Shown in pieces: positions 38,001 to 54,481 of a stretch of 64,000 nt of DNA. Origin of the DNA: Bacteroidaceae bacterium. Lineage in GTDB: Bacteria; Bacteroidota; Bacteroidia; Bacteroidales; Bacteroidaceae. Where the stretch lies: assembly GCA_017534535.1 (NCBI GenBank), contig JAFXVZ010000044.1, forward strand, positions 1 through 64,000. Direction: 5' to 3'. Positions within the stretch are counted from its first letter, which is position 1. Each line of letters begins with the position of its first letter. The notes below the pieces were generated by a model that did not search any database, was not told the DNA's origin, and was given only the letters and a program-made list of their open reading frames with translations. The position numbers were made by a program, and so were the translations under genes.

Positions 38001-39659
38001 ATGCGTTGTATTCTTTACATATTGGCTTTAGGGATTGCTCTCTTCATGACAGGATGTGCTGAAGGTGGTTTGCTCGATTCTGATGCTGACCTCACGCTCG
38101 ACTATATTGATAGTCTGATGGATGCTTCCCGGTATCGTGAGGCCTATAATGTATTAGCTGTCATGGATAGTACCATGCGGTGCAAAAGCCATGGCGTACA
38201 GATGCGATACCAGTTGCAGAGCATCAAAGCTGCCGACAAGGTTAATCTGCCTTTGGGCAGCGACAGCTTAATTCTTTCTATCATCAGCTATTATGAATAT
38301 GAGGGAGATAAGTCTTATCTTCCTGAAGCCTATTATTATGCCGGCAGGACATACGCTTCGCTAAATGATTCAGAACGGGCGTTGGAGTATTTTAATAAAG
38401 CACTGGAAGTAATAGACCATGATGATGCATACTTGTTGAGCAGAATCCATTCTCAGAGAGGCTATGTGTTCTATAAACAAGGCTTGTATGATGAGGCCAT
38501 TGAGGAACATCTTAAATCTTACGATAACTCTTTAAGAGAGGGTGACACAATCGCTATGATACACAATTACCGCGATATTGGTAATTGCTATTTAGGGAAA
38601 GAAGAGTATAATGATGCGTTGTCTTATTACGATAAAGGAGTTGAACTTGTTACCCTTGTGAATGATAGTACATTTTTAGGTCTAATCGGAATAGATAAAG
38701 CGAGTGCTTATACTTATATGGGTAATCTAGAAAAGGCAGAGAAGTATGTGAAACAGTCTATAAGTTTGGTTGATTCTTCCTATATTGATTATGCAAATGA
38801 AGTGGCTGGTTACTTGTTTTTCAGACAAAAAAAGTATGGTTTGGCAAAGCCTTATTATGAAAAGCTTCTTGATTCAAAATCTTTATACTCTCGACAAGAA
38901 GGTGAGGCTATGCTGTTGAGTATGGCTGCCAATGAAAAGAATTTTGATGAGGCATTGAAGCATTTAGTTCCTTATAAGGAACTGACAGACTCCATTTCTA
39001 TCATAACGGATTCAGAAAAGATTGCCCGTATCAATAGCCTTTACAACAGCCGGCAGTTAGAAAAAGAGAATGAGAAGCTGGAACGTCAGAACATCCGCTA
39101 CAACTATTTGCTGGTAATCGGTGGTTTGCTGGTTGTCATCATTGTCGTTTCTCTGCTCTTATATAGCTACCGCATACGGTCTGAGCGTAACAGACTGCGC
39201 TATAACAATGCCATGCTTGATAATTTCTATAAAGAGGAACAACTGAAGAGAGAGCTGGCAGAACAGGAACGAGACTGGCTGAAGAAAACGAATACGATGG
39301 AGTTACTGAAGCATAAGCAAGAAGATAAACGGATATTTGCTATACGTGAATCTGATGTTTATCAAAAAATGCTTCACTCTGTCAAAGCCATACATGCCGA
39401 TGACCAGAAAGAAATAAGGAGTCTGCTGGATCAGCTTTATCCGGAGTTCTTCACTCGTTTGCAGACTTTAGGCGTGAGCAAGCCCCAGGAATTATTAGTC
39501 AGCATGCTGCTCAAGATGGGCTATACTCCTTCTCAGATTGCTGTCTTGTCAGCTCATAGTGTGAGTTCTATAACCAATACACGCAAGAATCTTTATAAAA
39601 AAGTTACAGGTGAAGACGGCAAGGCCGAAGATTGGGACAAAATTGTCAATACGCTGTAA
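38001..39659 (+). CDS. Membrane-anchored TPR-HTH regulator (cassette A)
   Basis: 552 aa from ATG 38001 (MRCILYILALGIALFMTGC, lipobox Cys19). Order: export signal; about 330 residues of tetratricopeptide repeats (LPEAYYYAGRTYASLNDSER, then YLLSRIHSQRGYVFYKQGLY); one TM helix at about 368-392 (VIGGLLVVIIVVSLLLY); a charged coiled coil; and a C-terminal HTH (about 495-552) with LLKMGYTPSQIAVLSAHS and SITNTRKNLYKKVTG, resembling LuxR/sigma-region-4 type helices. So the TPR part faces the periplasm and the HTH the cytoplasm. A paralogue of the same layout is at 44555. I infer a one-component transmembrane regulator of the neighbouring genes; the ligand is unknown. Confidence 0.82.
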   Translation: MRCILYILALGIALFMTGCAEGGLLDSDADLTLDYIDSLMDASRYREAYNVLAVMDSTMRCKSHGVQMRYQLQSIKAADKVNLPLGSDSLILSIISYYEYEGDKSYLPEAYYYAGRTYASLNDSERALEYFNKALEVIDHDDAYLLSRIHSQRGYVFYKQGLYDEAIEEHLKSYDNSLREGDTIAMIHNYRDIGNCYLGKEEYNDALSYYDKGVELVTLVNDSTFLGLIGIDKASAYTYMGNLEKAEKYVKQSISLVDSSYIDYANEVAGYLFFRQKKYGLAKPYYEKLLDSKSLYSRQEGEAMLLSMAANEKNFDEALKHLVPYKELTDSISIITDSEKIARINSLYNSRQLEKENEKLERQNIRYNYLLVIGGLLVVIIVVSLLLYSYRIRSERNRLRYNNAMLDNFYKEEQLKRELAEQERDWLKKTNTMELLKHKQEDKRIFAIRESDVYQKMLHSVKAIHADDQKEIRSLLDQLYPEFFTRLQTLGVSKPQELLVSMLLKMGYTPSQIAVLSAHSVSSITNTRKNLYKKVTGEDGKAEDWDKIVNTL

Positions 39660-39690
39660 CTTACTGTCCTCCAATAAGAAATCCTGAAAT

Positions 39691-39788
39691 AATGAAATTT
39701 TAGTGAAATCGCCTTGATGCCTTCCCGGTAAAATGAATTTTTAGTGAAAGCATTTTTTTTGCAGCTTTTTGCGTAGGCGATATCTTTG
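39691..39788 (+). promoter_or_regulatory. Promoter of DUF3244-A with two 18-bp direct repeats
   Basis: AATGAAATTTTAGTGAAA (39691-39708) and AATGAATTTTTAGTGAAA (39732-39749) differ at one base and start 41 bp apart (four helical turns). Below them lies a perfect promoter: TTTG (39758-39761), 19 bp, TATCTTTG (39781-39788). Repeat ends are 73 and 32 bp before the -7 box. Likely an activator operator. Confidence 0.7.
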
Positions 39789-39829
39789 CATCGTTGAATT
39801 TATGTTTAATTTAAATGATGTAAAGAATT

Positions 39830-40174
39830 ATGAAGAAACTATTATTGTTATTAGTTTGCACCTTTTTCTGTGCGGTATCCTTTGCGGATGATATAGATTT
39901 AAAGAGACGGCCTCCTGTAGATACAGGTGGTAATAAAGCTCCTGCGCTATATCCATCAGCTTCTTATGATAATGGCAGCGTCACCATCTATGCACCTTAT
40001 TATATAGATAGCATGACGGTAGTGATAGCTGATGTTAATGAGGATGACATCTATACTGTTCAGTTGGGAGGATTCATTGGTCAGCAGTCTATTGTGTTAC
40101 CAGATATAGTGGATGAGGATAAATATAGCATCTACCTCTACTTCAATGGCATCTGTTTATATGGGCTGTTTTAA
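39830..40174 (+). CDS. Small exported DUF3244-like protein (cassette A)
   Basis: 114 aa. Signal peptide MKKLLLLLVCTFFCAVSFA followed by a variable stretch and a beta-rich domain: SVTIYAPYYIDSMTVVIAD, IYTVQLGGFIGQQSIVLPD and a C-terminal LYFNGICLYGLF. I associate it with the DUF3244 family of small secreted Bacteroidetes proteins (family name from memory). The C-terminal two thirds are almost identical to the protein at 46370 while the first 40 mature residues differ. Follows the repeat-bearing promoter and precedes the thioredoxin-like lipoprotein by 11 bp. Confidence 0.75.
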   Translation: MKKLLLLLVCTFFCAVSFADDIDLKRRPPVDTGGNKAPALYPSASYDNGSVTIYAPYYIDSMTVVIADVNEDDIYTVQLGGFIGQQSIVLPDIVDEDKYSIYLYFNGICLYGLF

Positions 40175-40185
40175 ATGATTCAGTT

Positions 40186-41037
40186 ATGCCGTGCCAGTTG
40201 AGACATCCTCTATTAATGTTGTTATTCATTGTTTTTGCTTCATGCAAGAACAATGGCAATGAGGCATCTGTTATCAAGATAGTGAAAGAATGGTATGGGA
40301 AAGAAGTCGTTTTCCCAAGCAATACAGTCTTTACTATCTTTGGACAGGATACGGTAGATTTCAGCTTTCAAAAGGCAGATTATAAGGTGGTGATCTATGT
40401 GGATTCCATAGGATGCCTCAGTTGTAAGCTTCAGTTGGATAAGTGGAAAGATGTCATCCACCGCATTGACTCTGTGTCAGATGTCCGTGTACCATTTGTG
40501 TTTGTCTTTTCTCCAGAGAAGCTGAGAGATGTTATGTATGCTACAAAGAGTGGGGGCTTTGATTATCCCATTCTGTTGGATTTGAAAGGAGAGTTTAATG
40601 CCCTGAACCATTTCCCTGACAACTTCAATTTCCAAACCATGTTGTTGGACAGAGATAACAAAGTGCTTGCCATTGGGAATCCTGTACAAAACCCCAAGAT
40701 ACTCGATCTGTATCAAAGCGTTATCACGGGTCAAGATACAGAGTCAGAGAGTAAGGCTTCACTGACTATGGCAGAGCTTGATAATAACGTGTTAGATTTC
40801 GGAGTATTGATAGTTGGTGACCCTCAGCAGCGTATAGTCAAGTTGAAGAACACTGGCGGTAAGCTGTCAATTTTTCGTTTAAGGCATATATTTGTCCGTT
40901 TTTCCAATACAAAGGCGTGTGTTTTTGTCCGTTTTTCCAACATTTTAACGTTTTCTACGTCATTCTCGCCATCTTTTTGTCCTCATAATACCAGTTTTTT
41001 GCCAGAAACCCAAGTCCTGGTGTATGATTTGAAGTGA
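40186..41037 (+). pseudogene. Thioredoxin-like/DUF1573 lipoprotein, C-terminally broken (cassette A)
   Basis: 283 aa ORF. Lipoprotein signal (FASC, C20), then a thioredoxin-like domain with VDSIGCLSCKLQL (C77 and C80, CxxC) and LDRDNKVLAIGNPVQNPKIL, then the beginning of a DUF1573 beta-sandwich (LDFGVLIVGDPQQRIVKLKN). Compared with the intact paralogue at 46741 it loses homology right after KNTGG (about nt 40860) and ends in unrelated AT-rich sequence encoding FRLRHIFVRFSNTKACVF. The CGC motif of DUF1573 is gone. The break coincides with a pair of 17-bp repeats, so I read it as truncated by an insertion or deletion. The thioredoxin half could still be made. Confidence 0.75.
40891..40940. repeat. 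Two 17-bp direct repeats at the cassette A break
   Basis: TTTGTCCGTTTTTCCAA occurs at 40891-40907 and 40924-40940, just after homology to the paralogous gene stops. Possibly the end of a mobile element; no transposase is visible. Confidence 0.65.
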
Positions 41038-41048
41038 TGTAGGCAATG

Positions 41049-42428
41049 CTATATTGTTACTTTGAACACTTCATCGAGGTCATAGCAGAGGCGTTGGAAT
41101 TTACTCCATAGGTCGGGCGACCACTTCTTCTTTCTATTCAGAAGGCGGAAGCTGTCGTATCTCTCTCGGTTCCAGGTAGGGAAAGTGTTCTCATTCAGGT
41201 AACCATTGTATTCTGTGAGTGTCTCACCTGAGAATTGTAAAGATGCTGGCAGGTTGGGGAACCAGTCACGGTGTTGCATCTGCTCGGCGAAATGCGTTGC
41301 CACTGGGTCTTTGATGTAATGATTGTATTTCAGCACAGAATAGATGCAGAACCAATGATTCTTCTTGTTGATAAGATTCAGCATCTTCTCAATTTTCCTG
41401 CGCAGATACTTGAAATCTATCGGCTTGCCGTTTATGCTTGTATAGAAAACCTTATTGTACAGCTCTGGCTCAATGCTTTCAGGATGACTATATTCATACA
41501 TCTGCTCAGAAAGCCACTGATATTTGGAGATGGCTGACAGCAGTGCTTCAATATCCTCATCATTCGGCAGGGGTCTGATGGTTACAATGCTCATAGCCAA
41601 TTCACTAATGTCATTAATGTGCTCCATGAAACAGGTCTGAAAGGCTCTTGGAACCTCCTTGATTAATCGTCTGCGTTCCATGCTCAAGTCGTCAAAATCG
41701 GGCATTCTACCGTCATGCTCATATTTCAGCACGGCTATGAAGTTCCGCAAATCCTCCTTCCCCTTATCGGTTTCTAAATAAGCCAGTACCTGACCAGTCA
41801 ACATGCGCCCTGCTTCCTCGTTGTTCACCTCCTCATCGGTCATCTGCGAAAGACTTTGGAAATGGAAGAGCAACAGGCACAGCGATGCGAAATATTTGAA
41901 GAGGTTCAACAGGCTCATTTCCCAAGGTTCCTGAGGGGATTCAATCACGTCCAAACTTTTCTCTACCTCTTTGAATAGTAAAGGCAATACCTTGAATGTC
42001 TCTAATGAGGCATCGTTGCCTTCCTTATCGGGCAACATCCATTCCTCGAGCTTGGGCATTAACATCCCGAAATCCATTTGCAGTTCTTTGGCACCGGGCC
42101 TATGCAGTCCTTTCTTCTGCCTCATTTCCTCTATTGCCCTGTACATCAGTTCTGATACATGCTTGATGACCTCATTGAGCTCCAGATAATAGTTCTGATT
42201 CATCTCACGCCGGCTTTGTGTCAAGTCCTCTTTTTGCAACCCCAGATCAATATCAATCAGGTAGCAAAGGCGGGAACCTTTCACGCAGAGCGAGTTCAAG
42301 TCAAACATCATCTCTTCCCGAGTACAGTCATCCCATTCCCCAACCAGCAGATAGCTCATGCTGAGGAACTCCGCCATTTGGCGGTCAAATGACTCATAGT
42401 TGAAATCGGAGGCGGTAGCAGTATTCAT
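41049..42428 (-). CDS. Hypothetical protein, 459 aa
   Basis: I do not recognise a family. The protein is soluble, largely helical and acidic at the N-terminus, without signal peptide; notable segments are IDIDLGLQKEDLTQSRREMN, a hydrophobic FKYFASLCLLLFHF stretch, KPIDFKYLRRKIEKMLNLIN and a Trp/Tyr-rich C-terminus (FPTWNRERYDSF). It is convergent with the broken cassette A gene and lies on the same strand as the VapE-like gene, so the two may belong to one inserted island. Start at ATG 42428. Confidence 0.65.
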   Translation of the reverse strand: MNTATASDFNYESFDRQMAEFLSMSYLLVGEWDDCTREEMMFDLNSLCVKGSRLCYLIDIDLGLQKEDLTQSRREMNQNYYLELNEVIKHVSELMYRAIEEMRQKKGLHRPGAKELQMDFGMLMPKLEEWMLPDKEGNDASLETFKVLPLLFKEVEKSLDVIESPQEPWEMSLLNLFKYFASLCLLLFHFQSLSQMTDEEVNNEEAGRMLTGQVLAYLETDKGKEDLRNFIAVLKYEHDGRMPDFDDLSMERRRLIKEVPRAFQTCFMEHINDISELAMSIVTIRPLPNDEDIEALLSAISKYQWLSEQMYEYSHPESIEPELYNKVFYTSINGKPIDFKYLRRKIEKMLNLINKKNHWFCIYSVLKYNHYIKDPVATHFAEQMQHRDWFPNLPASLQFSGETLTEYNGYLNENTFPTWNRERYDSFRLLNRKKKWSPDLWSKFQRLCYDLDEVFKVTI

Positions 42429-42485
42429 AAGCTTCTTTGTTTAGACTGCGAAGATATGAAATGTTTGCCACTTTTCCTAATTTGG

Positions 42486-42732
42486 GAACACAAACCATAG
42501 GTTTAGGGCAGACAACTCATAGGTTTTGAGGAGGAAACCTATAGAGTTTGAGGTGGTAAACCATAAGCTTAGAGGAAGCAAACTACTGGTTAGGCGGTAC
42601 TTGAAGCATGGTTAGGCGGTACCTGATGAATTGCTTGAAGCGAATGCCTCGATTGGTTGAAGTAAAAGGCCCGTTTGCTTCGGGAGGATGCCCCATTTGC
42701 TCCGACTAATCAAGCCATCCGCTTGGAGTGCC
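42486..42732. repeat. Degenerate tandem array, about 11 units of 22-23 bp
   Basis: Successive units start with a purine-rich GA/GT trinucleotide and share a central (C/T)ATAGGTTTA or ATTGGTTGAAG-like core. Sequence drifts gradually along the array while the period remains 22 (occasionally 23) bp. Confidence 0.6.
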
Positions 42733-42764
42733 TAAAAAATGGTGTTTTTAGTTTGAAGGGATTT

Positions 42765-42855
42765 CTATGTGTAAGCCGATACATTACTAATGTGCTGACA
42801 GATAGATTAATAATGTATAGACCGAGAGATTGTTAATGTGTAGAAAGAGGGAATG
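42765..42855. repeat. Degenerate tandem array, four units of 22-23 bp
   Basis: Units share TAATGT(G/A)(C/T) near the start and GA(T/G)A-rich ends; unrelated in sequence to the adjacent 22-bp array but with almost the same period. Confidence 0.6.
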
Positions 42856-42917
42856 CGGCTATAAGTCTTCACTCTTCACGGATGCCACTTATCGCATTGT
42901 TAATCTTGCAGTTAGGA

Positions 42918-42946
42918 GTGTGAAGAGGCAGCTTGCCTCTTCACAC
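42918..42946. terminator. Perfect 13-bp hairpin after the VapE-like gene
   Basis: GTGTGAAGAGGCA / TGCCTCTTCACAC with a 3-base loop, 15 bp beyond the stop of the minus-strand gene. No T run, so it may be a recombination or RNA-processing signal instead of a terminator; the GTGAAGA word also recurs upstream of the gene. Confidence 0.5.
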
Positions 42947-42960
42947 CTCTTCACCACATT

Positions 42961-44554: not shown

Positions 44555-46207
44555 ATGAAGCGGATAGTTCACATATTGCTGTTGGGTTTGACGCTCTGTT
44601 TGGCAGGGTGTCAGGGGATGTATTGGAGTGATGACCTGGAGTTCCTTGACACAATTGATAGCCTGTTGGTGGAGAAGAATTATAATACGGCATATAACGT
44701 AATCATTAGCACCGAAGAATTGATGCGTAAAGAGAGCCAAGATGCTCGGATGAGGTTTGAGTTGCAGAAAATCAAGGCAACCGATAAACTGAGTAAGCCC
44801 CTGCTGACAGATAGCGCTATCCTACCTATTATCGACTACTACGAACATGATGGCGACAAGACCCAGCTTCCTGAAGCATACTACTATGCTGGTAGGATAT
44901 ACTACTCCCTCCGTGACTATCCACGAAGCATGGAGTATTTCAACAAGGCTCTTGATGTGGTAAATGAGGATGAGAATTACTTGCTGAGCAGGATTCACTC
45001 ACAGAAAGGATATCTGTTTCACAATCAAGGGCTATTTGATGAGGCAATTAAATCACATCATCAATCATACGATGACTCGTTTAAAGTTGGTGATACGATA
45101 GGCATGATACATAGTTCTCGTGATATCGGGAATAGCTTTTCTGCTCAAGATGATTTTAAGAATGCTTTTTATTTTTATGATAAGGGTGAAGAACTTGCTG
45201 TATTAGTTAATGATAGCTCATTGAAAAGTCTCATAGGTATCGATAAGGCTAATACATATTCTTTCATGGGTGAGTATGAGTTAGCGGAAAAGTATTTGAA
45301 TCAATCTATATGTTATGTCGATTCAATGAATGTTGATTATGCAAATACAGTTGCAGGTTACCTTTATTTTATACAACACAAGTATGATTTGGCAAAGTCA
45401 TATTATAATAAGTTGTTATATTCTTCATCTGTTTACACTCGTCAGAATGGAGAGGCAGGACTATTAAACATTGCAGCAAATGATAAGGATATTAATGAAG
45501 CACTTAAGCACTTGCTTCCGTATAAAGAACTAACGGATTCTATTTCGCTAATAACAGATTCAGAAATAATAGCTCGTATTAATAGCCTTTATAATAGTCG
45601 TCGTTTAGAAAGGCAAAATGAAGAGCTTGAAAAAGTGAACATGCGTAACACCTATTATATAATAATAGGCGGTTTACTGCTTTTTACGGTCATAGTCCTC
45701 TTGATGCTTTATAATTATCGTGTTCGCTCTGAACGAAACAGATTGCGTTATAATAATGCCATGCTGGATAAATACTTGCAGGAAGAGCAAATGAAGAGAA
45801 GCTTAGCTGAACAGGAGCGTGATAAATTAGCGGAAACCGATGTGATAAAGAAACTGAAGGAGGAACAAGGTGATGAGAGGAAGAATGCCATCCGTGAATC
45901 TGCCATTTATCAAAAGGTATTGAATTCCTCAAAAGCCCTCACAGATAAAGATCAGGTTGAGATAGAAGAATTGCTGAATCAATTATATCCCGAATTTTTT
46001 ACTCGCCTACGCTCTTTAGGCATTGTCAAGGAGCATGATTTAAGGGTGTGTATGCTTGTAAAGATGGGGTTTAGTCCATCTCGAATAGCCTCTTTGGTTA
46101 GTCTTACTTTGAGCGCTATTACAAATACACGCAAAAGAATGTATGGAAAAGTAACGGGAAATAGGGGTAAACCTGAAGATTGGGATCAAATAATAGAGAG
46201 CTTGTAA
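44555..46207 (+). CDS. Membrane-anchored TPR-HTH regulator (cassette B)
   Basis: 550 aa from ATG 44555 (MKRIVHILLLGLTLCLAGC; lipobox Cys19). Paralogue of the protein at 38001 with the same order: lipoprotein-type signal, periplasmic TPR array (LPEAYYYAGRIYYSLRDYPR, LLSRIHSQKGYLFHNQGLF), TM helix (YYIIIGGLLLFTVIVLLMLY), coiled coil, and C-terminal HTH (VKMGFSPSRIASLVSLTLSA then ITNTRKRMYGKVTG). The TPR section is more AT-rich and more divergent than the flanking parts, as expected if the ligand-binding domain is under diversifying change. Likely controls the DUF3244-B promoter immediately downstream. Confidence 0.82.
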   Translation: MKRIVHILLLGLTLCLAGCQGMYWSDDLEFLDTIDSLLVEKNYNTAYNVIISTEELMRKESQDARMRFELQKIKATDKLSKPLLTDSAILPIIDYYEHDGDKTQLPEAYYYAGRIYYSLRDYPRSMEYFNKALDVVNEDENYLLSRIHSQKGYLFHNQGLFDEAIKSHHQSYDDSFKVGDTIGMIHSSRDIGNSFSAQDDFKNAFYFYDKGEELAVLVNDSSLKSLIGIDKANTYSFMGEYELAEKYLNQSICYVDSMNVDYANTVAGYLYFIQHKYDLAKSYYNKLLYSSSVYTRQNGEAGLLNIAANDKDINEALKHLLPYKELTDSISLITDSEIIARINSLYNSRRLERQNEELEKVNMRNTYYIIIGGLLLFTVIVLLMLYNYRVRSERNRLRYNNAMLDKYLQEEQMKRSLAEQERDKLAETDVIKKLKEEQGDERKNAIRESAIYQKVLNSSKALTDKDQVEIEELLNQLYPEFFTRLRSLGIVKEHDLRVCMLVKMGFSPSRIASLVSLTLSAITNTRKRMYGKVTGNRGKPEDWDQIIESL

Positions 46208-46369: not shown

Positions 46370-46723
46370 ATGAAAAAGTTTTTTGTTTTATTGATGAGTG
46401 CAATGATTTGCACCATGGCGTTTGCAGATGAAATTATAATCGTTCCAAGGCCAAATCCTAACAGTGGGAGTAGTAATGGTAAAAAGTCTTCTGCTCTTTA
46501 CCCTTCTGTTAATTATGAGGAAAGTACCGTCACCATTTATGCACCTTATTATATAGATAGCATGACGGTGGTAATAGCTGACAGTAACGAGGAAGAAATC
46601 TACACTGTTCAGTTGGGAGGTTTCATCGGTCAGCAATCTATTGTGTTACCAGATGTAGTTGATGCGGATAAATACAGCATCTATCTCTTCTTTAACGGCA
46701 TTTGTCTGTACGGTTTGTTTTAG
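46370..46723 (+). CDS. Small exported DUF3244-like protein (cassette B)
   Basis: 117 aa, signal peptide MKKFFVLLMSAMICTMAFA. The mature part starts with a diverged, Ser/Gly/Asn-rich segment, then YEESTVTIYAPYYIDSMTVV and YTVQLGGFIGQQSIVLPD, ending in FFNGICLYGLF, nearly identical to cassette A. First gene of a plus-strand series that continues to the signal peptidase at 54481 with no visible terminator. Role unknown; a small periplasmic beta-sandwich that could bind a peptide or the TPR sensor. Confidence 0.75.
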   Translation: MKKFFVLLMSAMICTMAFADEIIIVPRPNPNSGSSNGKKSSALYPSVNYEESTVTIYAPYYIDSMTVVIADSNEEEIYTVQLGGFIGQQSIVLPDVVDADKYSIYLFFNGICLYGLF

Positions 46724-46740
46724 CAAAGTAAATTGTTGAT

Positions 46741-47625
46741 ATGATGAGATTGTTGAAATATCTTTGCCTGTTTACAATGGGTATGGCATTCTTTACATCA
46801 TGCCATAAATCAGGTGAAAAAGGCGACATTACAAGACTTGTGTCTGAGTGGATGGATAAGGAGGTTCTTTTTCCTGATAACATGGTATTCACAATTCAAG
46901 GTAAAGATACTGTCGATTTCGCTTACCGAGATGCTGACTACAAAATAGTCTATTATGTTGATTCTGCTGGTTGTCTGAGCTGTAAATTGCAGTTAGAAAA
47001 CTGGAAGAAAGTGATTCAGCGTATTGATTCCGTAGCTGAAGAAAGTGTCCCATTTGTGTTTGTCTTCAATGCAAAAACTTTGCGGGATATTATTTTGGTT
47101 ACTCGTAAAGAAGGCTTTACACATCCGATTGTAGCAGATATGGGGGATAAGTTCAACCGCATGAACCATTTCCCTACTAACATTAATTTCCAGAGCATGT
47201 TGGTTGACAAAAACAATAAGGTATTGGCTATCGGCAATCCTGTTCTGAATCCTAAGGTTCTTGATTTATATCAAAGTATTATTTTAGGACAAGGAGAAGA
47301 CCAAGGGCATATAACTACTTTGACGGATGCTGAGTTGGAGACAGAAAGAGTCGATTTTGGAACTTTGGCCATTGGTAACCCACAACAACGGATGGTTTGG
47401 TTAAAGAATACAGGAAGCAAGCCTTTAATGGTGCAAGATGTGGTTGTTTCTTGTGGCTGTACTAAGGTAGATTATCCTGAAAAACCAATAATGCCAAATG
47501 AAACTGGGTATTTGACAATCAGCTATGATGCAGATAAGGTTGGAAACTTTCATAAAACCATTACTTTGTATTGCAATGCTGTCAATTCACCTTTGCAGAT
47601 TGAGTTAAAGGGGAATGTTATTTAA
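46741..47625 (+). CDS. Thioredoxin-like/DUF1573 lipoprotein (cassette B, intact)
   Basis: 294 aa. Signal peptide with lipobox FTSC (C21). Domain 1, about 30-195, is thioredoxin-like with VDSAGCLSCKLQL (C78 and C81, CxxC) and MLVDKNNKVLAIGNPVLNP; domain 2, about 200-294, is a DUF1573 beta-sandwich with VDFGTLAIGNPQQRMVWLKN, the VVVSCGCTKVDYP motif and GYLTISYDADKVG. A periplasm-facing thiol protein; it may form or reduce disulfides, and the peptides encoded next carry paired cysteines. ATG 46741 or 46744. Confidence 0.82.
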   Translation: MMRLLKYLCLFTMGMAFFTSCHKSGEKGDITRLVSEWMDKEVLFPDNMVFTIQGKDTVDFAYRDADYKIVYYVDSAGCLSCKLQLENWKKVIQRIDSVAEESVPFVFVFNAKTLRDIILVTRKEGFTHPIVADMGDKFNRMNHFPTNINFQSMLVDKNNKVLAIGNPVLNPKVLDLYQSIILGQGEDQGHITTLTDAELETERVDFGTLAIGNPQQRMVWLKNTGSKPLMVQDVVVSCGCTKVDYPEKPIMPNETGYLTISYDADKVGNFHKTITLYCNAVNSPLQIELKGNVI

Positions 47626-47715: not shown

Positions 47716-47952
47716 ATGAAAAAGATTTTTTTGGGTGTAGTTGTGGCCGCATTGGCTATTACTGCAAGCATGAGTATGATTGGCTCTGATGAGAGCAGTA
47801 TGAATGTGAGTGATTTGACTTCTGCGAATGTCGAGGCATTGGCAGATGGTGTTAATACGCTTGTGGGCTGTAATCCTTATGAGAGAGCGATTTGTATAGT
47901 AATGGGAGTTCCTTTATCGAATCTAACACCTGTTGTTGATAAGAATCAATGA
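47716..47952 (+). CDS. NVEALA-type secreted peptide precursor 1
   Basis: 78 aa. Basic start and hydrophobic segment (MKKIFLGVVVAALAITAS), a polar leader SMIGSDESSMNVSDLTSA, then NVEALA at residues 38-43, followed by a 35-residue tail with two cysteines (GCNPYERAIC, C52 and C60). NVEALA proteins are a family of short exported Bacteroidetes peptides of unknown function (family known to me as PF14055). A-L-A at the end of the motif fits a signal-peptidase I AxA site, giving a 35-aa mature peptide; cleavage there is inference. Confidence 0.82.
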   Translation: MKKIFLGVVVAALAITASMSMIGSDESSMNVSDLTSANVEALADGVNTLVGCNPYERAICIVMGVPLSNLTPVVDKNQ

Positions 47953-47961
47953 GTTTTTCCT

Positions 47962-47984
47962 GCATGCAACTATTTGTTGCATGC
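47962..47984 (+). promoter_or_regulatory. Perfect 9-bp hairpin between peptide 1 and propeller 1
   Basis: GCATGCAAC-TATTT-GTTGCATGC, 10 bp after the peptide stop and without a T run. Could raise the stability of the peptide message over the downstream gene. Confidence 0.45.
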
Positions 47985-48004
47985 GGATTATTATAGAATA
48001 AAAG

Positions 48005-49024
48005 ATGAGAATTATTACAGTTTTGATACTCTATGTAGTGGTTGCTGTATCTTGTTCGCATATAAACAGAACTGATGCATTTGAATCATTATACGCTTCT
48101 GATTCAATCAATCTTGAACTATCAGACCCTGGAGCAATATATATTCATGGTGACTATCTGTTTTTGATAGATAGAAAAGCGATAAGTGATTATATTCAAG
48201 TATATGATATTAGGAAGAAAGAGTTTCTTTTTTCTTTTGCTCCTATGGGCCAAGGACCTGGTGAATATGTCAGTCTTGCATCTATGAGTTTCTACGAACA
48301 AGAAGGCACTGAGTTAGTTGATTTGTATGACTTCAACCATAAAGTATGTACTTACCTCCTTGATGATATTATGGAAAAAAGGGAATCTGTTACCCCTTTC
48401 AAGGTGAGATATGTTCAAGATACAGGACTAACCATTCTAAATCTTTATAAAACGCGAGATGGATATATTTCAACTGGCATGTTTCCAGAGGGTAGGTTTT
48501 GTTTTTTATCAGATACAATGATGCCCTTGGGTTTTACAGGCTCTTATCGTAAGAAGCCAAATGAATCAATATCTGACGAAGTACACTTTATGGCGAGCTA
48601 TGGATTGCAGTATTTGTCAGATGATAAACAGTATTTAGCAGATTGTGTGACGACTGCCTCTGTTCTTACTTTGTATGAATTAAGAGGACAAGATGCAATA
48701 AAAAAATGGGAATATCTGATAGAGGAGTTGGATTATGAGGTTGAAGCGGACATTGTTCCTGTTCGTAAATCATCAAGGGGCTATGTTAGTGTTTCTTTCT
48801 CTAATAAGTATGTATATGCTATTTATTCAGGAGAGCCTGCGGACAATCCTGATGCTTATGGAAAAGAGATTCATGTATTTGATTTGGATACAGGAAGTCT
48901 TGTTAATAAGTATAATCTGGAAAGAAAGTCAAGTCATATAGTTGTAGATGAGGGCAAGGGGAAGATGTATATAGAGAGTGATTTCCCAGAACCTGTCATC
49001 TTAGTGTATGAGTTACCCGTCTAA
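48005..49024 (+). CDS. 6-bladed beta-propeller lipoprotein 1 (BF3164/TolB-like)
   Basis: 339 aa. Signal peptide with lipobox AVSC (C17). Repeating strand motifs with FAPMGQGPGEYVSLASMSFY, DYLFLIDRKAISDYIQVYDI and IHVFDLDTGSLVNKYNLE fit the TolB-like/BF3164 6-bladed propeller lipoproteins of Bacteroidetes. Such genes commonly follow NVEALA genes; here the gap to the peptide is 52 bp. Paralogous to the protein at 52589 (shared GQGPGE motif, same length). Possible receptor, chaperone or immunity partner of the peptide. Confidence 0.8.
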   Translation: MRIITVLILYVVVAVSCSHINRTDAFESLYASDSINLELSDPGAIYIHGDYLFLIDRKAISDYIQVYDIRKKEFLFSFAPMGQGPGEYVSLASMSFYEQEGTELVDLYDFNHKVCTYLLDDIMEKRESVTPFKVRYVQDTGLTILNLYKTRDGYISTGMFPEGRFCFLSDTMMPLGFTGSYRKKPNESISDEVHFMASYGLQYLSDDKQYLADCVTTASVLTLYELRGQDAIKKWEYLIEELDYEVEADIVPVRKSSRGYVSVSFSNKYVYAIYSGEPADNPDAYGKEIHVFDLDTGSLVNKYNLERKSSHIVVDEGKGKMYIESDFPEPVILVYELPV

Positions 49025-49057: not shown

Positions 49058-49285
49058 ATGAGAAAATTGTTTTATTTGACATCAGTTATTGTTTTAACTT
49101 GCAGTGCAATTGTATTTAATCAACGAAAAGAATTAACCGATCTCGCCAGTGCGAATATTGAAGCCTTGGCAGATGATATTGGATTAACACAGGCTATAGG
49201 ATGTGTTGTAATGGATGATGCTCTTTGTGTATATAAAGACCATTCTTTATTCAATTATACACTTTATTATGAGATTTTACAATAG
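49058..49285 (+). CDS. NVEALA-type secreted peptide precursor 2
   Basis: 75 aa. Hydrophobic N-terminus (MRKLFYLTSVIVLTCSAIVF), leader RKELTDLASA, then NIEALA (33-38) and a 37-residue tail containing GCVVMDDALC (C49 and C57). The Gly-Cys-x7-Cys spacing is the same as in peptide 1 though the intervening residues differ. It lacks the SMIGSD leader segment. Followed not by a propeller gene but by a recombination scar. Confidence 0.78.
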   Translation: MRKLFYLTSVIVLTCSAIVFNQRKELTDLASANIEALADDIGLTQAIGCVVMDDALCVYKDHSLFNYTLYYEILQ

Positions 49286-49317
49286 TCGTTATTTGCGGCT
49301 TAATTTGTAATCTTGTA

Positions 49318-49522
49318 TTGAAAAAAAAACTCAACATATTAGTGAACATCGTGTTCTATGGGAGCTTGGTGGTGGTGTGCTATCTGCTTCTGCAAGTATT
49401 TCTCTTGGTGTCGTTTAAGGTGCCAACCAATTCTATGTTGCCTGAATGATGCCGTGGCTTTATTATCTTTCGATGGAGTTATTCTTATCGGCTATTTTGA
49501 CTTGGATAAAGTGTTGGATTGA
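49318..49522 (+). pseudogene. Fusion scar: 5' end of lepB joined to 3' end of a propeller gene
   Basis: From a TTG at 49318 the sequence encodes about 42 residues matching the start of the signal peptidase at 53606 (ILVNIVFYGSL, LLLQVFLLVSFKVPTNSM), stopping at TGA 49447. In another frame, from about 49445 to TGA 49522, it encodes NDAVALLSFDGVILIGYFDL-KVLD, matching the C-terminus of propeller 2 (NDRLFFTFDDEIQFGYLDL-GILD). The joint lies in a short stretch similar in both genes. A deletion between a lepB copy and a downstream propeller copy explains it. Confidence 0.8.
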
Positions 49523-49551
49523 TATTAGTAACAATTAAAAAAATATGAATT

Positions 49552-50952
49552 ATGAATAAAAAGTTTTTTTCAATTACTGTGTTGTCATTAATTTGCTTCT
49601 TCTCTTGCATCTCTTGTACAAATGAAGAAGATTATTCAATTGTTCAGGAAGGCCATACAAGATTAGAAGTTGCTACCTTCAATGTAAATGTTCTTGATGA
49701 CATCCAGAAGTACGTAAACTATAGAATGGCTGAAAGTGCAGATACAAGAAGTCTGCAAAATATTTGTTATGAACCCTATACAATTGCTGGTGATACGGCA
49801 CTATATATTGTTAACTATGCCGATGGATGGGATGTTATGTCAACAGACCAACGTACTCCTATGGTTATGATGTCTTCTGATTCTGGCCATTTGGATGGAA
49901 GGAACCTTCCATATCCTCTAAGAGCTTATATAGGTAGTATAGCAAACGAAATACATCAACTGAAACAGATAGAGAATGTTAATAATGTTATTCATCCTGA
50001 GTGGCTAAAAATGCCTTCAAAAGAGGATTTGCACGACACGGAAAAAGAAGGGAACACCAGAGACGGATTGGAACCAGGTGTGGGCTATTGGGAACTGCTA
50101 TATTCGATAACTGTCGGTACTCCTACTGTTACTGAGTCTCCAAAAATGACAAGTACCTCATGGGATCAAGAAGATCCTTGGAATTATTATATTCCGTATG
50201 CAGCTGATAGTGCTTATTATGTAGGACCAGCAGGATGTGGCGCAGTTGCTTCTGCTCAATATCTTTATTATCTCCATTCAAAATATGGAGTTCCTACTTC
50301 AGCTGTAACCTCAGCAACAATTAATAATGCAAATACCCACACTTTCACTTTCTCAAACAAAACAACTACAGCTTGGAACAATATGGCATTAAATGGAAAT
50401 GGTACGACTAATGCAAAGAGAAAATCTGCCATGTTAATAGCATATTCAGCTGACAGAATAGGAACCCAATACTATAAGGATGGTGCATATTCATCATTTA
50501 ATAATGATATTTCTTTCATTAATTCAGAGACAGGTTATCACTTTTATTCCGCAAATTATGATTATAACTACGTGATAAATCAATTGCTTAATAATAAAGC
50601 TGTTTTAATGAGAGCTGAAGATACTTCAACATCGGATGGTCATGTTTTTATTGCAGATAGGATAATAACAACGAATACTACATATTGTGATTATTATGGA
50701 TGGGTTGGAACGACTAGTACAGGTGAAAGCGCAAATTACATTGATGAAAGCAATGGTCATATTATCGGGTATAAAATTAAGAAACAAGAGATTGTGACTC
50801 GGACAACATATAGTTACAAAATGAATTGGGGCTGGGGTGGAGATAATGATAATGTGGTTTGCAATCCATATAGTATAAATGACTGGTTTGTCACGATGAA
50901 TGATGGGCAGCAGTATCATTTTAACAGTGGTCGCAAAATGGCGAGACAATAA
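49552..50952 (+). CDS. C10-family cysteine protease (streptopain-like), lipoprotein
   Basis: 466 aa. Signal peptide with CISC lipobox (C22). N-terminal propeptide/Spi-like inhibitory region (about 30-200), then the catalytic domain: YYVGPAGCGAVASAQYLYYL (nucleophile C229), SDGHVFIADR (H364) and KMNWGWGGDNDN (Trp/Asp support). C10 peptidases are secreted zymogens in Bacteroides and Prevotella. Placed within the peptide locus between peptides 2 and 3 and 95 bp before a serpin gene; it could process the peptides or be the serpin's partner. Confidence 0.88.
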   Translation: MNKKFFSITVLSLICFFSCISCTNEEDYSIVQEGHTRLEVATFNVNVLDDIQKYVNYRMAESADTRSLQNICYEPYTIAGDTALYIVNYADGWDVMSTDQRTPMVMMSSDSGHLDGRNLPYPLRAYIGSIANEIHQLKQIENVNNVIHPEWLKMPSKEDLHDTEKEGNTRDGLEPGVGYWELLYSITVGTPTVTESPKMTSTSWDQEDPWNYYIPYAADSAYYVGPAGCGAVASAQYLYYLHSKYGVPTSAVTSATINNANTHTFTFSNKTTTAWNNMALNGNGTTNAKRKSAMLIAYSADRIGTQYYKDGAYSSFNNDISFINSETGYHFYSANYDYNYVINQLLNNKAVLMRAEDTSTSDGHVFIADRIITTNTTYCDYYGWVGTTSTGESANYIDESNGHIIGYKIKKQEIVTRTTYSYKMNWGWGGDNDNVVCNPYSINDWFVTMNDGQQYHFNSGRKMARQ

Positions 50953-51046: not shown

Positions 51047-52261
51047 ATGAAAAAGGTATTATTATTTCTGTTAGCAGTAGCTTTGTACGGTTGTGGTGAC
51101 GAAGAGCAAATTGCCAATACGAGGAATGAGGTAGAACCCATAGAACTTGATGGGAAACAGGTGGATATTAACTCAAATCTACAGGTTTTTTCCTGGGAAT
51201 TCTTCTCTCAAGTTTGTCGCGACAAAAGGGCTGGGGATAATGTAATTGTGTCACCCATTAGTTTGGGAATAAATCTTGGAATGTTGCTCAACGGTCTAAG
51301 TGGTAACAGTAAGCAAGAATTGTTGGAGGTTATGCATTTGCAAGGGCATGATACAAATGACATAAACCAATTCTTCCAGAAAATGATGAAAGGGATACAA
51401 AGGGCTGATAAGCAGACCACTTTCAGTAGTGCCAATTCTTTTTGGTTTGATGAGAAATACAGTTTGTCGAAAGACTTCAGCTCTGTTATCAAAAACAGCT
51501 ATGGTGCTGAAGTCGGAAGTGTTGATTTTGCCGACAGCAAGACCAAGGGTGCGATAAATACTTGGTGTGCCAAGCATACCAATCATCGTATTCCCCAGAT
51601 TATTAATGAGACGAATCCTGAAATGCTGTTCTATCTCATCAATGCCATATATTTTGACTCTACATGGGAGAAGCCCTTTGAGAAAGGTGATTCAGAGTCA
51701 TTTACCTACGAGAATGGAACTCAAGACAAGATTATCATGATGAAAAAGAGTGGTAATTGGCTTTTTACAGAAAGGGATTCATATATGGTTTGCAGTATGC
51801 CATATACCAACGGCTCTTTCAGCATGTTATTGATTCTGCCAAAAGAAGGGTATAATGTACAGGATGTGATAGCTCAATTAGAGGTGGAGGATTTGCTGCT
51901 GAACAGGATGTATAAGACAGATGTACATATATGGATGCCAGAGTTCCAATGTACATATCCTATCAATGACATCTATGAAAAACTCAGGGATATGAATCCG
52001 GACTTTGTTCTGAATGCCAATGAGATGGAGATGTTTGATGAAACGGTAAAGGGTAATGTTTTTATAGCTCAGAAAAATTATATCAAAGTGGATGAACGGG
52101 GAACAAAAGCTGCTGCAATTACTTACACAGGGATGGACGCTTCTGCTCCTGCTGCTTTTGAGCGTAAGTATGTTGAGATGCATTTGGATCATCCTTTCCT
52201 ATACAGCATCATAGAGACAAGTACCAATTGCCCTTTGTTTATCGGATATCATGGCAATTGA
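51047..52261 (+). CDS. Serpin-family protease inhibitor, lipoprotein
   Basis: 404 aa. Lipobox LYGC (C16). Full serpin fold: NVIVSPISLGINLGMLLNGL, SANSFWFDEKYSL, INTWCAKHTNHRIPQII, LINAIYFDSTWEKPF, then the hinge VDERGTKAAAITYT and a reactive-centre loop GMDASAPAAF before HLDHPFLYSI. The small-residue hinge is that of an inhibitory serpin; P1 cannot be fixed because the loop is longer than in antitrypsin. Likely surface or periplasmic, protecting against the neighbouring C10 protease or host proteases. Confidence 0.9.
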   Translation: MKKVLLFLLAVALYGCGDEEQIANTRNEVEPIELDGKQVDINSNLQVFSWEFFSQVCRDKRAGDNVIVSPISLGINLGMLLNGLSGNSKQELLEVMHLQGHDTNDINQFFQKMMKGIQRADKQTTFSSANSFWFDEKYSLSKDFSSVIKNSYGAEVGSVDFADSKTKGAINTWCAKHTNHRIPQIINETNPEMLFYLINAIYFDSTWEKPFEKGDSESFTYENGTQDKIIMMKKSGNWLFTERDSYMVCSMPYTNGSFSMLLILPKEGYNVQDVIAQLEVEDLLLNRMYKTDVHIWMPEFQCTYPINDIYEKLRDMNPDFVLNANEMEMFDETVKGNVFIAQKNYIKVDERGTKAAAITYTGMDASAPAAFERKYVEMHLDHPFLYSIIETSTNCPLFIGYHGN

Positions 52262-52351
52262 AGTGTCATTTCTTTAAGTAACAAGCAATAAAAGAGTAAG
52301 TTAACTATTATATTAACATTTTTAAATTTAGTATTATGAAGGAAGTTTTTT

Positions 52352-52576
52352 ATGAGCGTAGCCCTCATTTCAGCAATTGCGATTGCTGCTGGCTACAGTA
52401 TGATTGGCTCTGACAAGAGCGATGTAAATGTAAATGAATTGACACAGGCTAATGTTGAGGCATTTGCAAGTGACTGTTGTCCTAATGGGTGTTTGACAGA
52501 GCCTGATACTAATTGCAAATGCTGTGGAGTCCAATGGGGATTTATGGAGAAAGATTGGAGTAATCCCAATTATTGA
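52352..52576 (+). CDS. NVEALA-type secreted peptide precursor 3 (frameshifted N-terminus)
   Basis: 74 aa from ATG 52352. Hydrophobic segment, leader YSMIGSDKSDVNVNELTQA almost matching peptide 1, NVEAFA at 34-39, then a 35-residue tail with six cysteines (C42, 43, 47, 55, 57, 58). A better start lies at 52336 (ATGAAGG), but it is one base out of frame: removing one base there, or one T of the T6 run at 52346-52351, gives MKKFFMSVALI or MKEVFMSVALI, restoring the basic N-terminus of the family. So it is either translated from the internal ATG, phase-variable, or damaged. Confidence 0.75.
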   Translation: MSVALISAIAIAAGYSMIGSDKSDVNVNELTQANVEAFASDCCPNGCLTEPDTNCKCCGVQWGFMEKDWSNPNY

Positions 52577-52588
52577 GTTGTTTTATTT

Positions 52589-53596
52589 ATGAAAAAGAAT
52601 CACTTCTTTTTATGTGTTTTGTGTTTTATCTTTGTTGCCTGCCGCAACCAAGATAAAAACAATATCGAGATAAGACAAGATAAGCGTGATAGGGTTGAAG
52701 ATGTGAATAATTTGCTTAATGTGCTTTCTTTTGAGGAGGTTCTAACTAGTAGATTCGCATATATAAAAATTGCAGGTGATTTTTTGCTTGTTTCTGATTT
52801 GCGTTCTTCTGACAAACTTATTCATTTGTATTATAAGAAAACTTATAAATACTGCGGTAGTACTGGTGATTTAGGGCAAGGCCCTGGCGAAATAGCATCA
52901 ATAGGTCCGATAGCATATGATGATATTAATTGTTTGCTTTATGTATTGGATTATGGTTCCATGAATGTGTATAGCTTCAACATAAAAAAAGCGATTTCAG
53001 ATGCAGATTACTTGCCAGAGATAAAATGTAAAGTAGATAAGAATTCTTATCCCATTGACTTTGCTTATGTTAATGATACGTTATGTTATGGGGCATTCTC
53101 TATCCCTAAGGGGAATGATGTTCAAGATATATCTGGGAAATGGAATATGCTAACAGGCGATGTAATCATACATAAGCAGGAGTATCCAGGTTTAAAAGTT
53201 GAACGTGTAGTCTCTGATTATTCATTGAAAAACAAACTGATAGTGGAGTGTAGTACTCGATATGATTTAATGAGCATTTTTAATGAGGATTTGTCTTTGA
53301 AGCATAGAATTTATGGACCTAATTGGAATAAGAATGGTGATTATAAATCACATTTTAAAAGTGTAGTGTTCTATAAAGATTATATCATAGCTTCGTATGA
53401 TGGGACAAAATACGAAGAATATAATAAGCCTAAAGTCTGTCATGTGTTTGACTTGGATGGTAATTATATCAAAACCCTTGATGTTGGGTATAGAATCTGG
53501 CGCATGAGTGTGGACGAAGATAATGACCGTCTGTTTTTTACTTTTGATGACGAGATACAGTTCGGCTATCTGGACTTGAAAGGGATATTAGACTAA
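52589..53596 (+). CDS. 6-bladed beta-propeller lipoprotein 2 (BF3164/TolB-like)
   Basis: 335 aa. Signal with lipobox FVAC (C18). Propeller strands similar in arrangement to propeller 1: FLLVSDLRSSDKLIHLYYKK, TGDLGQGPGEIASIGPIAYD, VCHVFDLDGNYIKTLDVGY and a final FGYLDLKGILD. Starts 12 bp after peptide 3 and ends 9 bp before the signal peptidase, so peptide, propeller and peptidase form a tight unit. Confidence 0.8.
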   Translation: MKKNHFFLCVLCFIFVACRNQDKNNIEIRQDKRDRVEDVNNLLNVLSFEEVLTSRFAYIKIAGDFLLVSDLRSSDKLIHLYYKKTYKYCGSTGDLGQGPGEIASIGPIAYDDINCLLYVLDYGSMNVYSFNIKKAISDADYLPEIKCKVDKNSYPIDFAYVNDTLCYGAFSIPKGNDVQDISGKWNMLTGDVIIHKQEYPGLKVERVVSDYSLKNKLIVECSTRYDLMSIFNEDLSLKHRIYGPNWNKNGDYKSHFKSVVFYKDYIIASYDGTKYEEYNKPKVCHVFDLDGNYIKTLDVGYRIWRMSVDEDNDRLFFTFDDEIQFGYLDLKGILD

Positions 53597-53605
53597 GAAT
53601 AGGAA

Positions 53606-54481
53606 TTGAAGAAGTGGCTTGGCATATTGGTGAACATCGTGTTCTATGGGAGCTTGGCGGTGGTAGGCTATCTGCTGCTGCAAGTATTTCTTCTGGTGTC
53701 GTTTAAGGTGCCAACCAATTCGATGGTACCTGAAATAATGCCAGGGGACTTTATTTTGGTGGAGAAGCTCAGCATGGGGCCAAGACTGTTTAATGTGTTC
53801 AAGGCCACAAGACTGGAGGATGTTGAGATTTATCGTCTGCCCGGACTAAGGGGCATCAAGCAGAATGATGTAGTGGTGTTTAACTTCCCCTATGAGTATG
53901 GGAGATGGGATAGCATAAGGTTTCACGTGATGAAGTATTACACCAAGCGGTGTATAGGTTTGCCAGGTGATACTCTCAGTATCAGGAACGGATTGTATCA
54001 GATAGTTGGCGAGAAAGGGGAAATAGGAAAACGTTTACAACAGATGGAGTTGGCAATGTTCTCAGACAGCATCCTCTTTGAAAGGTATCCTGACCCTGTT
54101 TATCCTGAGGCTTCGGCAGGCGTGGGTATGGGGTGGACTTTGAAGGAGTTTGGTCCCCTGCCCATCCCACAACGGGGGCAGAGCATTCAGATGGACTCTA
54201 CGACGTGGAAGCTGTATCATCAGTTGGTGGAGTGGGAGCAGAAACAGAAACTGACTATCGACCATGAGGGGGTGGTGAGGTTAGGGAATGAGGTCATTGA
54301 CGCATATACCTTTACCCACGACTATTACTTCATGGCAGGTGACAATGCCATTAGCTCCATCGATTCCCGTTTCTGGGGCCTCGTGCCAGATGACTATATT
54401 GTGGGCAGGGTTTGGCGCATCTGGAAGTCGGTAGATCGCAAAGGCAAAGTGAGATGGGATAGAATAGGGAAGAAAGTATAG
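53606..54481 (+). CDS. lepB: Signal peptidase I dedicated to the peptide locus
   Basis: 291 aa from TTG 53606; the same TTG-AAR start is kept in the partial copy at 49318. One N-terminal TM (about 5-31) then the catalytic boxes: VPTNSMVPEIMPGDFILVEK (Ser39), YYTKRCIGLPGDTLSIRNG (Lys114) and MAGDNAISSIDSRFWGLVP. Complete enzyme of the Bacteroidetes type. House-keeping LepB genes normally sit elsewhere, so this is probably an accessory enzyme, plausibly cutting the AxA in the NVEALA motif. Confidence 0.9.
   Translation: MKKWLGILVNIVFYGSLAVVGYLLLQVFLLVSFKVPTNSMVPEIMPGDFILVEKLSMGPRLFNVFKATRLEDVEIYRLPGLRGIKQNDVVVFNFPYEYGRWDSIRFHVMKYYTKRCIGLPGDTLSIRNGLYQIVGEKGEIGKRLQQMELAMFSDSILFERYPDPVYPEASAGVGMGWTLKEFGPLPIPQRGQSIQMDSTTWKLYHQLVEWEQKQKLTIDHEGVVRLGNEVIDAYTFTHDYYFMAGDNAISSIDSRFWGLVPDDYIVGRVWRIWKSVDRKGKVRWDRIGKKV

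Follow-up and report, generated by a model that had tools for sequence, protein, structure and literature searches.

Paired NVEALA peptides and propeller lipoproteins of Bacteroidales, with a signal peptidase and a double-RND pump, form what looks like an undescribed secretion system

Gene content of the NVEALA locus

The 64,000-nucleotide (nt) stretch of DNA analyzed here (the window; positions 1 to 64,000 of contig JAFXVZ010000044.1, assembly GCA_017534535.1, from a Bacteroidaceae bacterium) carries a plus-strand locus of NVEALA peptides, small precursors related to Pfam family PF14055. Comparison with other Bacteroidales genomes ties these peptides to TolB-like propeller lipoproteins, a CxxC lipoprotein, a signal peptidase I and a four-gene pump of the resistance-nodulation-division (RND) type (Table 1). 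The three peptides, two propellers, signal peptidase, C10 protease and serpin named in an earlier note on this DNA were all confirmed at their positions. That note nevertheless ended the locus at 54481, which is too early because the pump operon (54663-63446) belongs to the system; it missed both the pump and the pairing of peptides with propellers, and the conserved system, as far as gene neighbourhoods define it, is different from the gene list given there.

Peptides 1 and 3 lie over the 27-bit curated cut-off of PF14055 and peptide 2 just under it. The in-frame ATG of peptide 3 is at 52352, the ATG at 52336 belonging to another frame (region 52336-52360), and a start at the former leaves a leader without the usual lysines. 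The pump operon begins 182 nt behind the signal peptidase and brings together, in the order fusion protein, RND subunit, outer membrane channel and second RND subunit, all the parts of a tripartite RND pump. Within the source genome, NVEALA was found only in the window.

Table 1. Features of the NVEALA locus in window coordinates
Feature	Position	Strand	Evidence or remark
TPR-TM-HTH regulator, cassette A	38001..39659	+	TPR family matches; local or optional part
DUF3244-like small exported protein, cassette A	39830..40174	+	246 nt at 82% identity with cassette B copy
CxxC thiol lipoprotein without DUF1573, cassette A	40186..41037	+	CxxC profile match
TPR-TM-HTH regulator, cassette B	44555..46207	+	TPR families; BT3442 family 2e-24, far below cut-off
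DUF3244-like small exported protein, cassette B	46370..46723	+	Repeat match to cassette A copy
CxxC (StoA-like) lipoprotein, C-terminal DUF1573	46741..47625	+	DUF1573 7.6e-28
NVEALA peptide 1 precursor, 2-Cys core	47716..47952	+	PF14055 34.5 bits
Hairpin, 11-bp stem, in peptide 1/propeller 1 gap	47960..47986	+	z -6.1
Propeller lipoprotein 1 (TolB-like), positional partner of peptide 1	48005..49024	+	PF15869 2e-22, over cut-off
NVEALA peptide 2 precursor, no propeller behind	49058..49285	+	PF14055 26.6 bits, cut-off 27
Truncated copy of signal peptidase start	49317..49449	+	Profile match 1.5e-11
C10 protease with Spi-like propeptide, local addition	49552..50952	+	PF01640 9.6e-16
Serpin, local addition	51047..52261	+	PF00079 8.3e-78
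NVEALA peptide 3 precursor, CPNGC-class core	52352..52576	+	PF14055 35.6 bits
Propeller lipoprotein 2, cognate type of peptide 3	52589..53596	+	27.6 bits against cut-off 29.2, just under
NVEALA-type signal peptidase I (Ser39, Lys114)	53606..54481	+	PF10502 1.4e-26
Pump membrane fusion protein, HlyD type	54663..55751	+	HlyD_D23 1.1e-14
Pump first RND subunit	55824..58862	+	ACR_tran 2.9e-176
Pump outer membrane channel, OEP/TolC type	58873..60396	+	Profile match 1.6e-205; relatives match OEP
Pump second RND subunit	60393..63446	+	Profile match 3.7e-304; reading frame checked

Peptide cores and their propellers across Bacteroidales

Within the same family, 28 of 151 genomes have NVEALA peptides (20 of them over cut-off); within the order 26 of 393 do, and three genomes are common to both sets. 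Profiles grown from the window proteins were used to survey 40 neighbourhoods within the family, drawn from 25 genomes other than the window's own, and 33 outside it, to which 21 of 23 carriers contributed; many of them are on short contigs. A propeller is present in 40/40 family and 30/33 order neighbourhoods, the CxxC lipoprotein in 23/40 and 20/33, and the signal peptidase, fragments counted, in 19/40 and 10/33. Peptides have a propeller as the next gene in 80 of 109 cases in the family set and in 39 of 59 in the order set, where the others are followed by another peptide (4) or by no searched family within 700 nt (16). The median gap between peptide and propeller is 60 nt, and a single genome can carry as many as about 20 peptide genes. 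In Phocaeicola vulgatus ATCC 8482 (locus L109) the genes from propeller to peptidase lie at about 92-101 kb of NC_009614.1, with the pump adjoining.

Each precursor combines a conserved leader with a hypervariable core, mean identities in 12 genomes being 55% and 22%, respectively. With a site pattern that allowed A, V or G at position -3 and left -1 free, 98 of 102 motif-bearing precursors have A at -3 and 97 have A (80) or S (17) at -1, so that NVEALA is, by its residue pattern, an A-x-A type site. It follows the hydrophobic stretch at a median distance of 21 residues (quartiles 20 and 23, minimum 13), a distance that is far shorter in ordinary signal peptides. The cores, of about 38 residues, are acidic (median charge -2) and rich in Cys, which makes up 8.3% of the core and 1.1% of the leader in the 12 genomes; all but one of 163 distinct cores contain Cys, mostly 2 or 4 residues, and in 125 the number is even, although related cores are not independent. 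This parity agrees with the earlier suggestion that the peptides would be disulfide-bonded. The D-S/T-x glycosylation motif is not enriched in the cores (6 occurrences against 11.2 expected).

The propeller behind a peptide matches its core. In a rank test, cores alike in two genomes were taken and the likeness of their propellers was ranked among all propeller pairs that the two genomes offer (0 best, 0.5 chance). At z>=6, the 24 usable pairs of the first set have a mean rank of 0.13, against a chance value of 0.504 (standard deviation 0.061, lowest of 200 shuffles 0.346); the 18 pairs from different genera give 0.123, and a control using the propeller upstream gives 0.42 to 0.475 on 8 to 26 pairs. 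The rank correlation over all core and propeller distances is weak (rho 0.06 and 0.05) because most cores are unrelated, and since the ranked test was designed after this had been seen, it was repeated with new genomes and by class. The replication left thresholds and profiles unchanged and required at least one new genome label per pair (44 of 120 pairs come from 20 unused labels; one of these, L114, denotes a contig of genome G047, which the first set had already sampled through its other contig). It gave a mean rank of 0.056 for 42 usable of 48 pairs at z>=6, 34 of them at the top, with chance at 0.502 (standard deviation 0.051, lowest of 300 shuffles 0.336). By class, the mean over 19 classes is 0.067 against 0.498 by chance (lowest of 500 shuffles 0.331); 16 classes fall below 0.1 and the rest at 0.11, 0.21 and 0.78, 10 of the 19 resting on one usable pair, and a same-contig filter removed nothing.

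Looser thresholds weaken the effect, to 0.298 at z>=3 in the first set and 0.224 at z>=4 in the replication. Dropped were duplicates, cores under 15 residues, propellers under 200 residues, 17 NVEALA matches without the motif and genome pairs that offered less than 4 combinations (8 of 72 at z>=6). When leader and propeller are ranked on the same 64 pairs, the leader of the same gene reaches 0.408 (chance 0.503, standard deviation 0.044) and the propeller 0.051; the core thus tracks the neighbouring gene far more closely than its own leader. Such tracking is what would be expected if each propeller bound its own peptide, as the earlier note had supposed of the propellers in general.

The CPNGC class, to which peptide 3 belongs, is the largest (9 members in 9 genomes, mean rank 0.001), and propeller 2 shares 29-35% identity with six propellers of that class, paired or not, as against 11-22% with the other 37 aligned. 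Among solved structures, those closest to the propellers are NHL propellers and the exported protein 4raa.

The gap between peptide and propeller often folds. Among 75 of 120 pairs with gaps of 25-400 nt, 68% fold more than 2 standard deviations better than single-base shuffles (median z -4.1), compared with 9% of controls taken just after the propeller and 8% of those inside it. The hairpin is probably a leaky terminator or a stabilizer, either of which would yield more peptide than propeller. Its presence behind peptide 1, and at similar places in other genomes, makes it doubtful that the run of genes from cassette B lacks a terminator, as had been thought; over the window as a whole, a terminator scan found no excess (11 terminator-like sites, 10.8 in shuffles).

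Candidate processing and export genes, and local additions

The association with NVEALA was also assessed by genome, comparing up to 28 NVEALA genomes with 18 NVEALA-free ones of the same family; weak carriers G038 and G125 were excluded from the CxxC, pump and TPR-HTH counts. The pump fusion protein is found in 23/26 NVEALA genomes and 1/18 NVEALA-free ones (Fisher p 3e-8), and the CxxC lipoprotein in 21/26 and 1/18 (p 1e-6). An extra signal peptidase, counted by hand among the matches listed and with the second places of G004 and G070 taken as housekeeping, is found in 21/28 and 0/18 (p 2e-7). The sole NVEALA-free pump carrier, G001, has a propeller 122 nt ahead of the fusion protein (L226 1680-11679).

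The signal peptidase retains S39 and K114, invariant in 13 aligned sequences, which we take to be the catalytic Ser-Lys pair of signal peptidase I. A reverse scan starting from this protein alone covered the best 80 of 525 loci in a named collection and was split at 15 loci after the E-values had been viewed. Among the 15 closest relatives, which include contigs of family-set genomes (L113 and L114), 8 have NVEALA, 12 have NVEALA, propeller or CxxC, 8 have fusion protein, RND subunit and channel, and 9 have at least two of these three; the next 65, which serve as controls and mostly surround signal peptidases of other Bacteroidota, contain no NVEALA, CxxC, RND subunit or channel, 4 propellers and 1 fusion protein.

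In a tree of 87 of 101 peptidases, taken from a chosen part of the loci, a clade of 48 (support 0.997) holds all 35 that have NVEALA (32) or a propeller at a cut-off of 1e-10 (3) in their locus, and none of the 39 outside it has either. Four control loci carry a weaker propeller, of which only L154 was offered to the tree, and 11 of the 35 marked peptidases came from peptidase-based searches, 9 from the reverse scan and 2, one of them the window's own, from the genome-level search. Neighbourhoods, genome counts and the peptidase tree agree in uniting peptides, propellers, CxxC lipoprotein and signal peptidase in one conserved system, and to this extent the earlier proposal stands. The A-x-A pattern and the gene association suggest that this enzyme cuts at the NVEALA site; of the two candidates for maturation put forward in the earlier note, it is the signal peptidase, and not the C10 protease, that goes with NVEALA.

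In the CxxC lipoprotein both Cys residues are kept in 23/23 aligned sequences, and its profile matches StoA (3erw, 5e-5). In 7 cases the CxxC gene, rather than a propeller, stands directly behind a peptide (L033 7856-9037, L037 2225-3304, L042 8966-10102, L041 9738-10852); most of the peptides in question share the pattern C..G...CP...K, and the lipoprotein may be their partner.

Eighteen further stretches around the pump fusion protein carry two RND genes in 18/18 and the channel in 17/18, one ending at a contig edge. Some pump part occurs in 9/40 family and 6/33 order neighbourhoods, and the pump operon of L069 encloses a peptide array, 48 nt past the fusion protein and 18 nt ahead of the RND gene.

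The remaining genes of the locus are less constant. The earlier note had described two cassettes, each with a regulator combining tetratricopeptide repeats, a transmembrane segment and a helix-turn-helix (TPR-TM-HTH), a DUF3244-like protein and a CxxC/DUF1573 lipoprotein. Both sets are present, with regulators 59% identical in alignment, but a Pfam scan finds DUF1573 only in the CxxC protein of cassette B and no family over cut-off in the DUF3244-like proteins; the protein in the equivalent position at L054 matches DUF3244 (1.3e-7). Between the cassettes lie two minus-strand genes, 41049-42428 (no Pfam family) and 42961-44142 (VapE-like/DUF3874), and the cassette A CxxC gene loses its DUF1573 end just ahead of this pair (41049-44142).

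The comparison does not support the C10 protease (1/40 family and 0/33 order neighbourhoods) and the serpin (0/40 and 0/33) as parts of the system, among which they were previously counted. A repeat of 130 nt (49317-49446) is 86% identical to 53605-53734, the start of the full signal peptidase gene, and the truncated copy sits between peptide 2 and the C10 gene; C10 and serpin are thus flanked by two peptidase-start copies, which suggests a rearranged or inserted block.

The co-occurrence expected by the earlier note holds for NVEALA, propeller and CxxC but not for the TPR regulator, which occurs in 6/40 family and 4/33 order neighbourhoods. By genome it is not associated with NVEALA either (16/26 against 9/18, Fisher p 0.54), so that a TPR receptor gene does not regularly accompany the peptides, and the proposal that it senses them is not borne out. 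Other membrane regulators take its place at 12/40 loci. At L054, from another genus, TPR, DUF3244, C10 and CxxC genes nevertheless stand together with two peptide-propeller pairs, and at L057 and L060 TPR genes adjoin CxxC and NVEALA genes; these arrangements indicate that in some genera control of the locus may lie with the TPR set. BT_3442 is a distant relative of the TPR protein (NCBIfam 2e-24, far under cut-off) and, in the accessible text of PMC2954219, is part of a MACPF cluster of B. thetaiotaomicron.

Elsewhere in the source genome, contig C44 (L223 4178-9287) carries two propellers, one of them 41% identical to propeller 2 of the window, beside two TPR-HTH proteins, and farther on (13195-14544) another serpin; no NVEALA, CxxC or signal peptidase matches were found in the L223 stretch. 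The peptide arrays of genome G080 contain transposase-like trios (L033 10835-13449, L034 2538-5152, L035 4091-6705), presumably IS66, and the window has a tandem pair of tRNA-Val (tac) genes at 10539-10764.

A candidate secretion pathway and its alternatives

We consider it fairly probable that the locus encodes a pathway that secretes polymorphic peptides, each paired with a propeller of its own, a reading that the comparison supports through the co-occurrence of the parts, the peptidase clade, the match of core and propeller, the hairpin and the parity of Cys. Its unit would be a two-gene cassette of a precursor peptide, made of the conserved leader (hydrophobic stretch, about 21 residues, A-x-A) and the hypervariable core, and a matching propeller lipoprotein. 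After the precursor has crossed the inner membrane, the dedicated signal peptidase I would cut it at NVEALA and the CxxC lipoprotein would give the core its disulfides. The pump, with its two RND subunits, fusion protein and TolC-type channel, would then move the peptide from the periplasm to the outside. RND pumps draw their load from the periplasm, where the signal peptidase would release the peptide, and export by the pump, which we infer from the gene association, fits such a path. The propeller would recognize its own peptide, which the hairpin behind the peptide gene would keep in excess. More tentatively, the ensemble can be viewed as a new peptide secretion system of Bacteroidales, with cutting in the periplasm, double-RND export and a propeller that serves as immunity or recognition partner.

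Several observations weigh against this pathway. Seven of the 28 NVEALA genomes show no extra peptidase among the matches listed, the genome-level association comes from a single family, and the CxxC profile and pump query were drawn from NVEALA loci, so that matches there were favoured. All three kinds of pump part occur in only 6/40 family and 2/33 order NVEALA stretches, and the pump lies near NVEALA, propeller or locus peptidase genes in only 16 of 23 NVEALA genomes, although two of the seven in which it lies apart (G062 and G077) have it at a contig end. The usual load of RND pumps is small molecules, and the present pump might expel something other than peptides. In the rank test, L199|7487 with L055|4606 is a counter-example (rank 33/42), and the match of core and propeller could reflect joint inheritance. 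Within the window, no propeller goes with peptide 2, and the gap of 12 nt ahead of propeller 2 contains no hairpin.

Finally, 97 propellers have no paired peptide directly ahead. For 47 of them there is no peptide, 25 stand behind another propeller, and 8 come with remnant-like or overlapping peptides; of the rest, 6 lie at an edge, 6 near CxxC or peptidase genes and 5 near an NVEALA gene that fails the pairing rule. A motif search of 450 nt upstream found no peptide for 72 of the 97. In a separate count, 27 of the 97 match a propeller that is paired in a different genome; with one same-contig row dropped, 26 are left, and for 23 of these the stretches fetched from the same genome contain no close paired relative. 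Tandem runs of seven propeller genes occur at L041 86-8482 and L042 12117-19540, all but one of the genes having no peptide match ahead.

As to what secreted peptides would do, we favour antagonism between cells, in which the propeller would be an immunity or docking partner, as a possibility rather than a probability. In polymorphic toxin/immunity systems a conserved N-terminal delivery part is joined to a variable C-terminal part, with a matched downstream gene and unpaired partner genes. By analogy the present system has their form: a fixed leader, a variable core to which, in the replication and by class, the partner is matched, unpaired partners, its own exporter and a patchy spread. The core might accordingly harm neighbouring Bacteroidales while the cognate propeller protects the producer, a possible reading, favoured by the counts of unpaired propellers, under which the peptide-free propellers would be orphan immunity genes. 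The acidity of the cores speaks against it, as does the lack of any toxin feature found; CPNGC cores, the only class compared with solved structures, matched none of them, and immunity proteins are generally smaller than a propeller of 330 residues.

Only a little less likely is that the peptides are instead signals, bound by propellers as lipoprotein receptors and reported to genes by membrane regulators. Recurrent neighbours within 3 kb, of which one member per cluster was scanned, include, at 12 of 40 loci, membrane proteins that match Trans_reg_C (two clusters, at 7 and 5 loci, the second below cut-off), to which the TPR type adds its 6/40, and the hairpin suggests an excess of peptide over propeller such as a signal might show. 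These are few regulators for up to 20 peptides, however, and the TPR family is neither associated with NVEALA nor dependent on it for its place beside propellers on contig C44.

An unlikely alternative is surface assembly, in which the peptide would be a small subunit staying on its propeller and varying the cell surface. The strict pairing would suit it, as would two recurrent neighbours: Wzy_C proteins (Wzy_C/TPR genes), present at 12 loci, and, at 13, a lipoprotein of about 650 residues that matches F5/8C weakly and is by eye transglutaminase-like. The unequal amounts suggested by the hairpin, the many propellers without peptide and the absence of D-S/T-x enrichment do not. MauE-like proteins, below cut-off, recur at 3 loci.

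That the core-propeller match is mere physical linkage of neighbours, with no interaction, is suggested by the closeness of the two genes; it is quite improbable, since the leader, part of the very same gene, hardly matches and the propeller upstream does not. Least of all can we credit the loop of the earlier note, with the TPR domain as peptide sensor and C10 as maturation protease: the genes do stand together in the window and at L054, but C10 is nearly absent from other loci and TPR is not associated with NVEALA by genome.

The secretion pathway for paired peptides and propellers differs from the known systems it resembles. Bacteroidetocins and class II bacteriocins are likewise short secreted Bacteroidales peptides with a conserved leader, but that leader is of GG type and is served by a C39-type transporter in the accessible text of PMC10352776. 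The A-x-A site, signal peptidase I and RND pump set the present system apart: the -1 residues are not those of a GG leader, and no C39 peptidase transporter turned up among the neighbour clusters looked at, not every neighbour having been scanned.

From polymorphic toxin/immunity systems it differs in its tiny peptide, in which no toxin domain was found, and its propeller lipoprotein as partner. MdtABC is also a tripartite RND pump with a fusion protein and two RND proteins, but here the channel is in the operon and the pump goes with peptide arrays and a signal peptidase. Accessory signal peptidases I adjoin their supposed substrates in pilin or biofilm systems as well; those of the present loci go with hypervariable peptides whose site lies about 21 residues past the hydrophobic stretch. 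The BT_3442-BT_3433 cluster combines a TPR protein with a BVU_0276-like Ig-fold protein, its cargo being MACPF proteins, and no NVEALA peptide is named in the accessible text (PMC2954219).

NVEALA (PF14055) and TolB_like (PF15869/DUF5128) are Pfam families of single proteins, for which we found no known role; literature matches to PF14055 are, judging from titles, apparently Plasmodium gene names, and the name BF3164 appears in PMC1887533. No paper on NVEALA or on the paired peptide-propeller system was found in the open-licence PubMed Central literature, preprints not covered, and within that literature the paired system appears to be new.

In summary, the peptide-propeller sets of Bacteroidales, together with their signal peptidase and pump, look like an undescribed secretion system directed toward neighbouring cells. 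Since each peptide class comes with a predicted partner, processing enzyme and exporter, the whole path is testable by gene removal. If the toxin/immunity reading is true, this would be a known kind of system with new machinery; an RND pump that exports ribosomal peptides would be surprising in transport, and a beta-propeller as a peptide-specific partner would be surprising in bacterial competition. Bacteroidales dominate the human gut, and dozens of peptide-propeller specificities, borne by arrays and orphan propellers, would then decide which of them coexist there.

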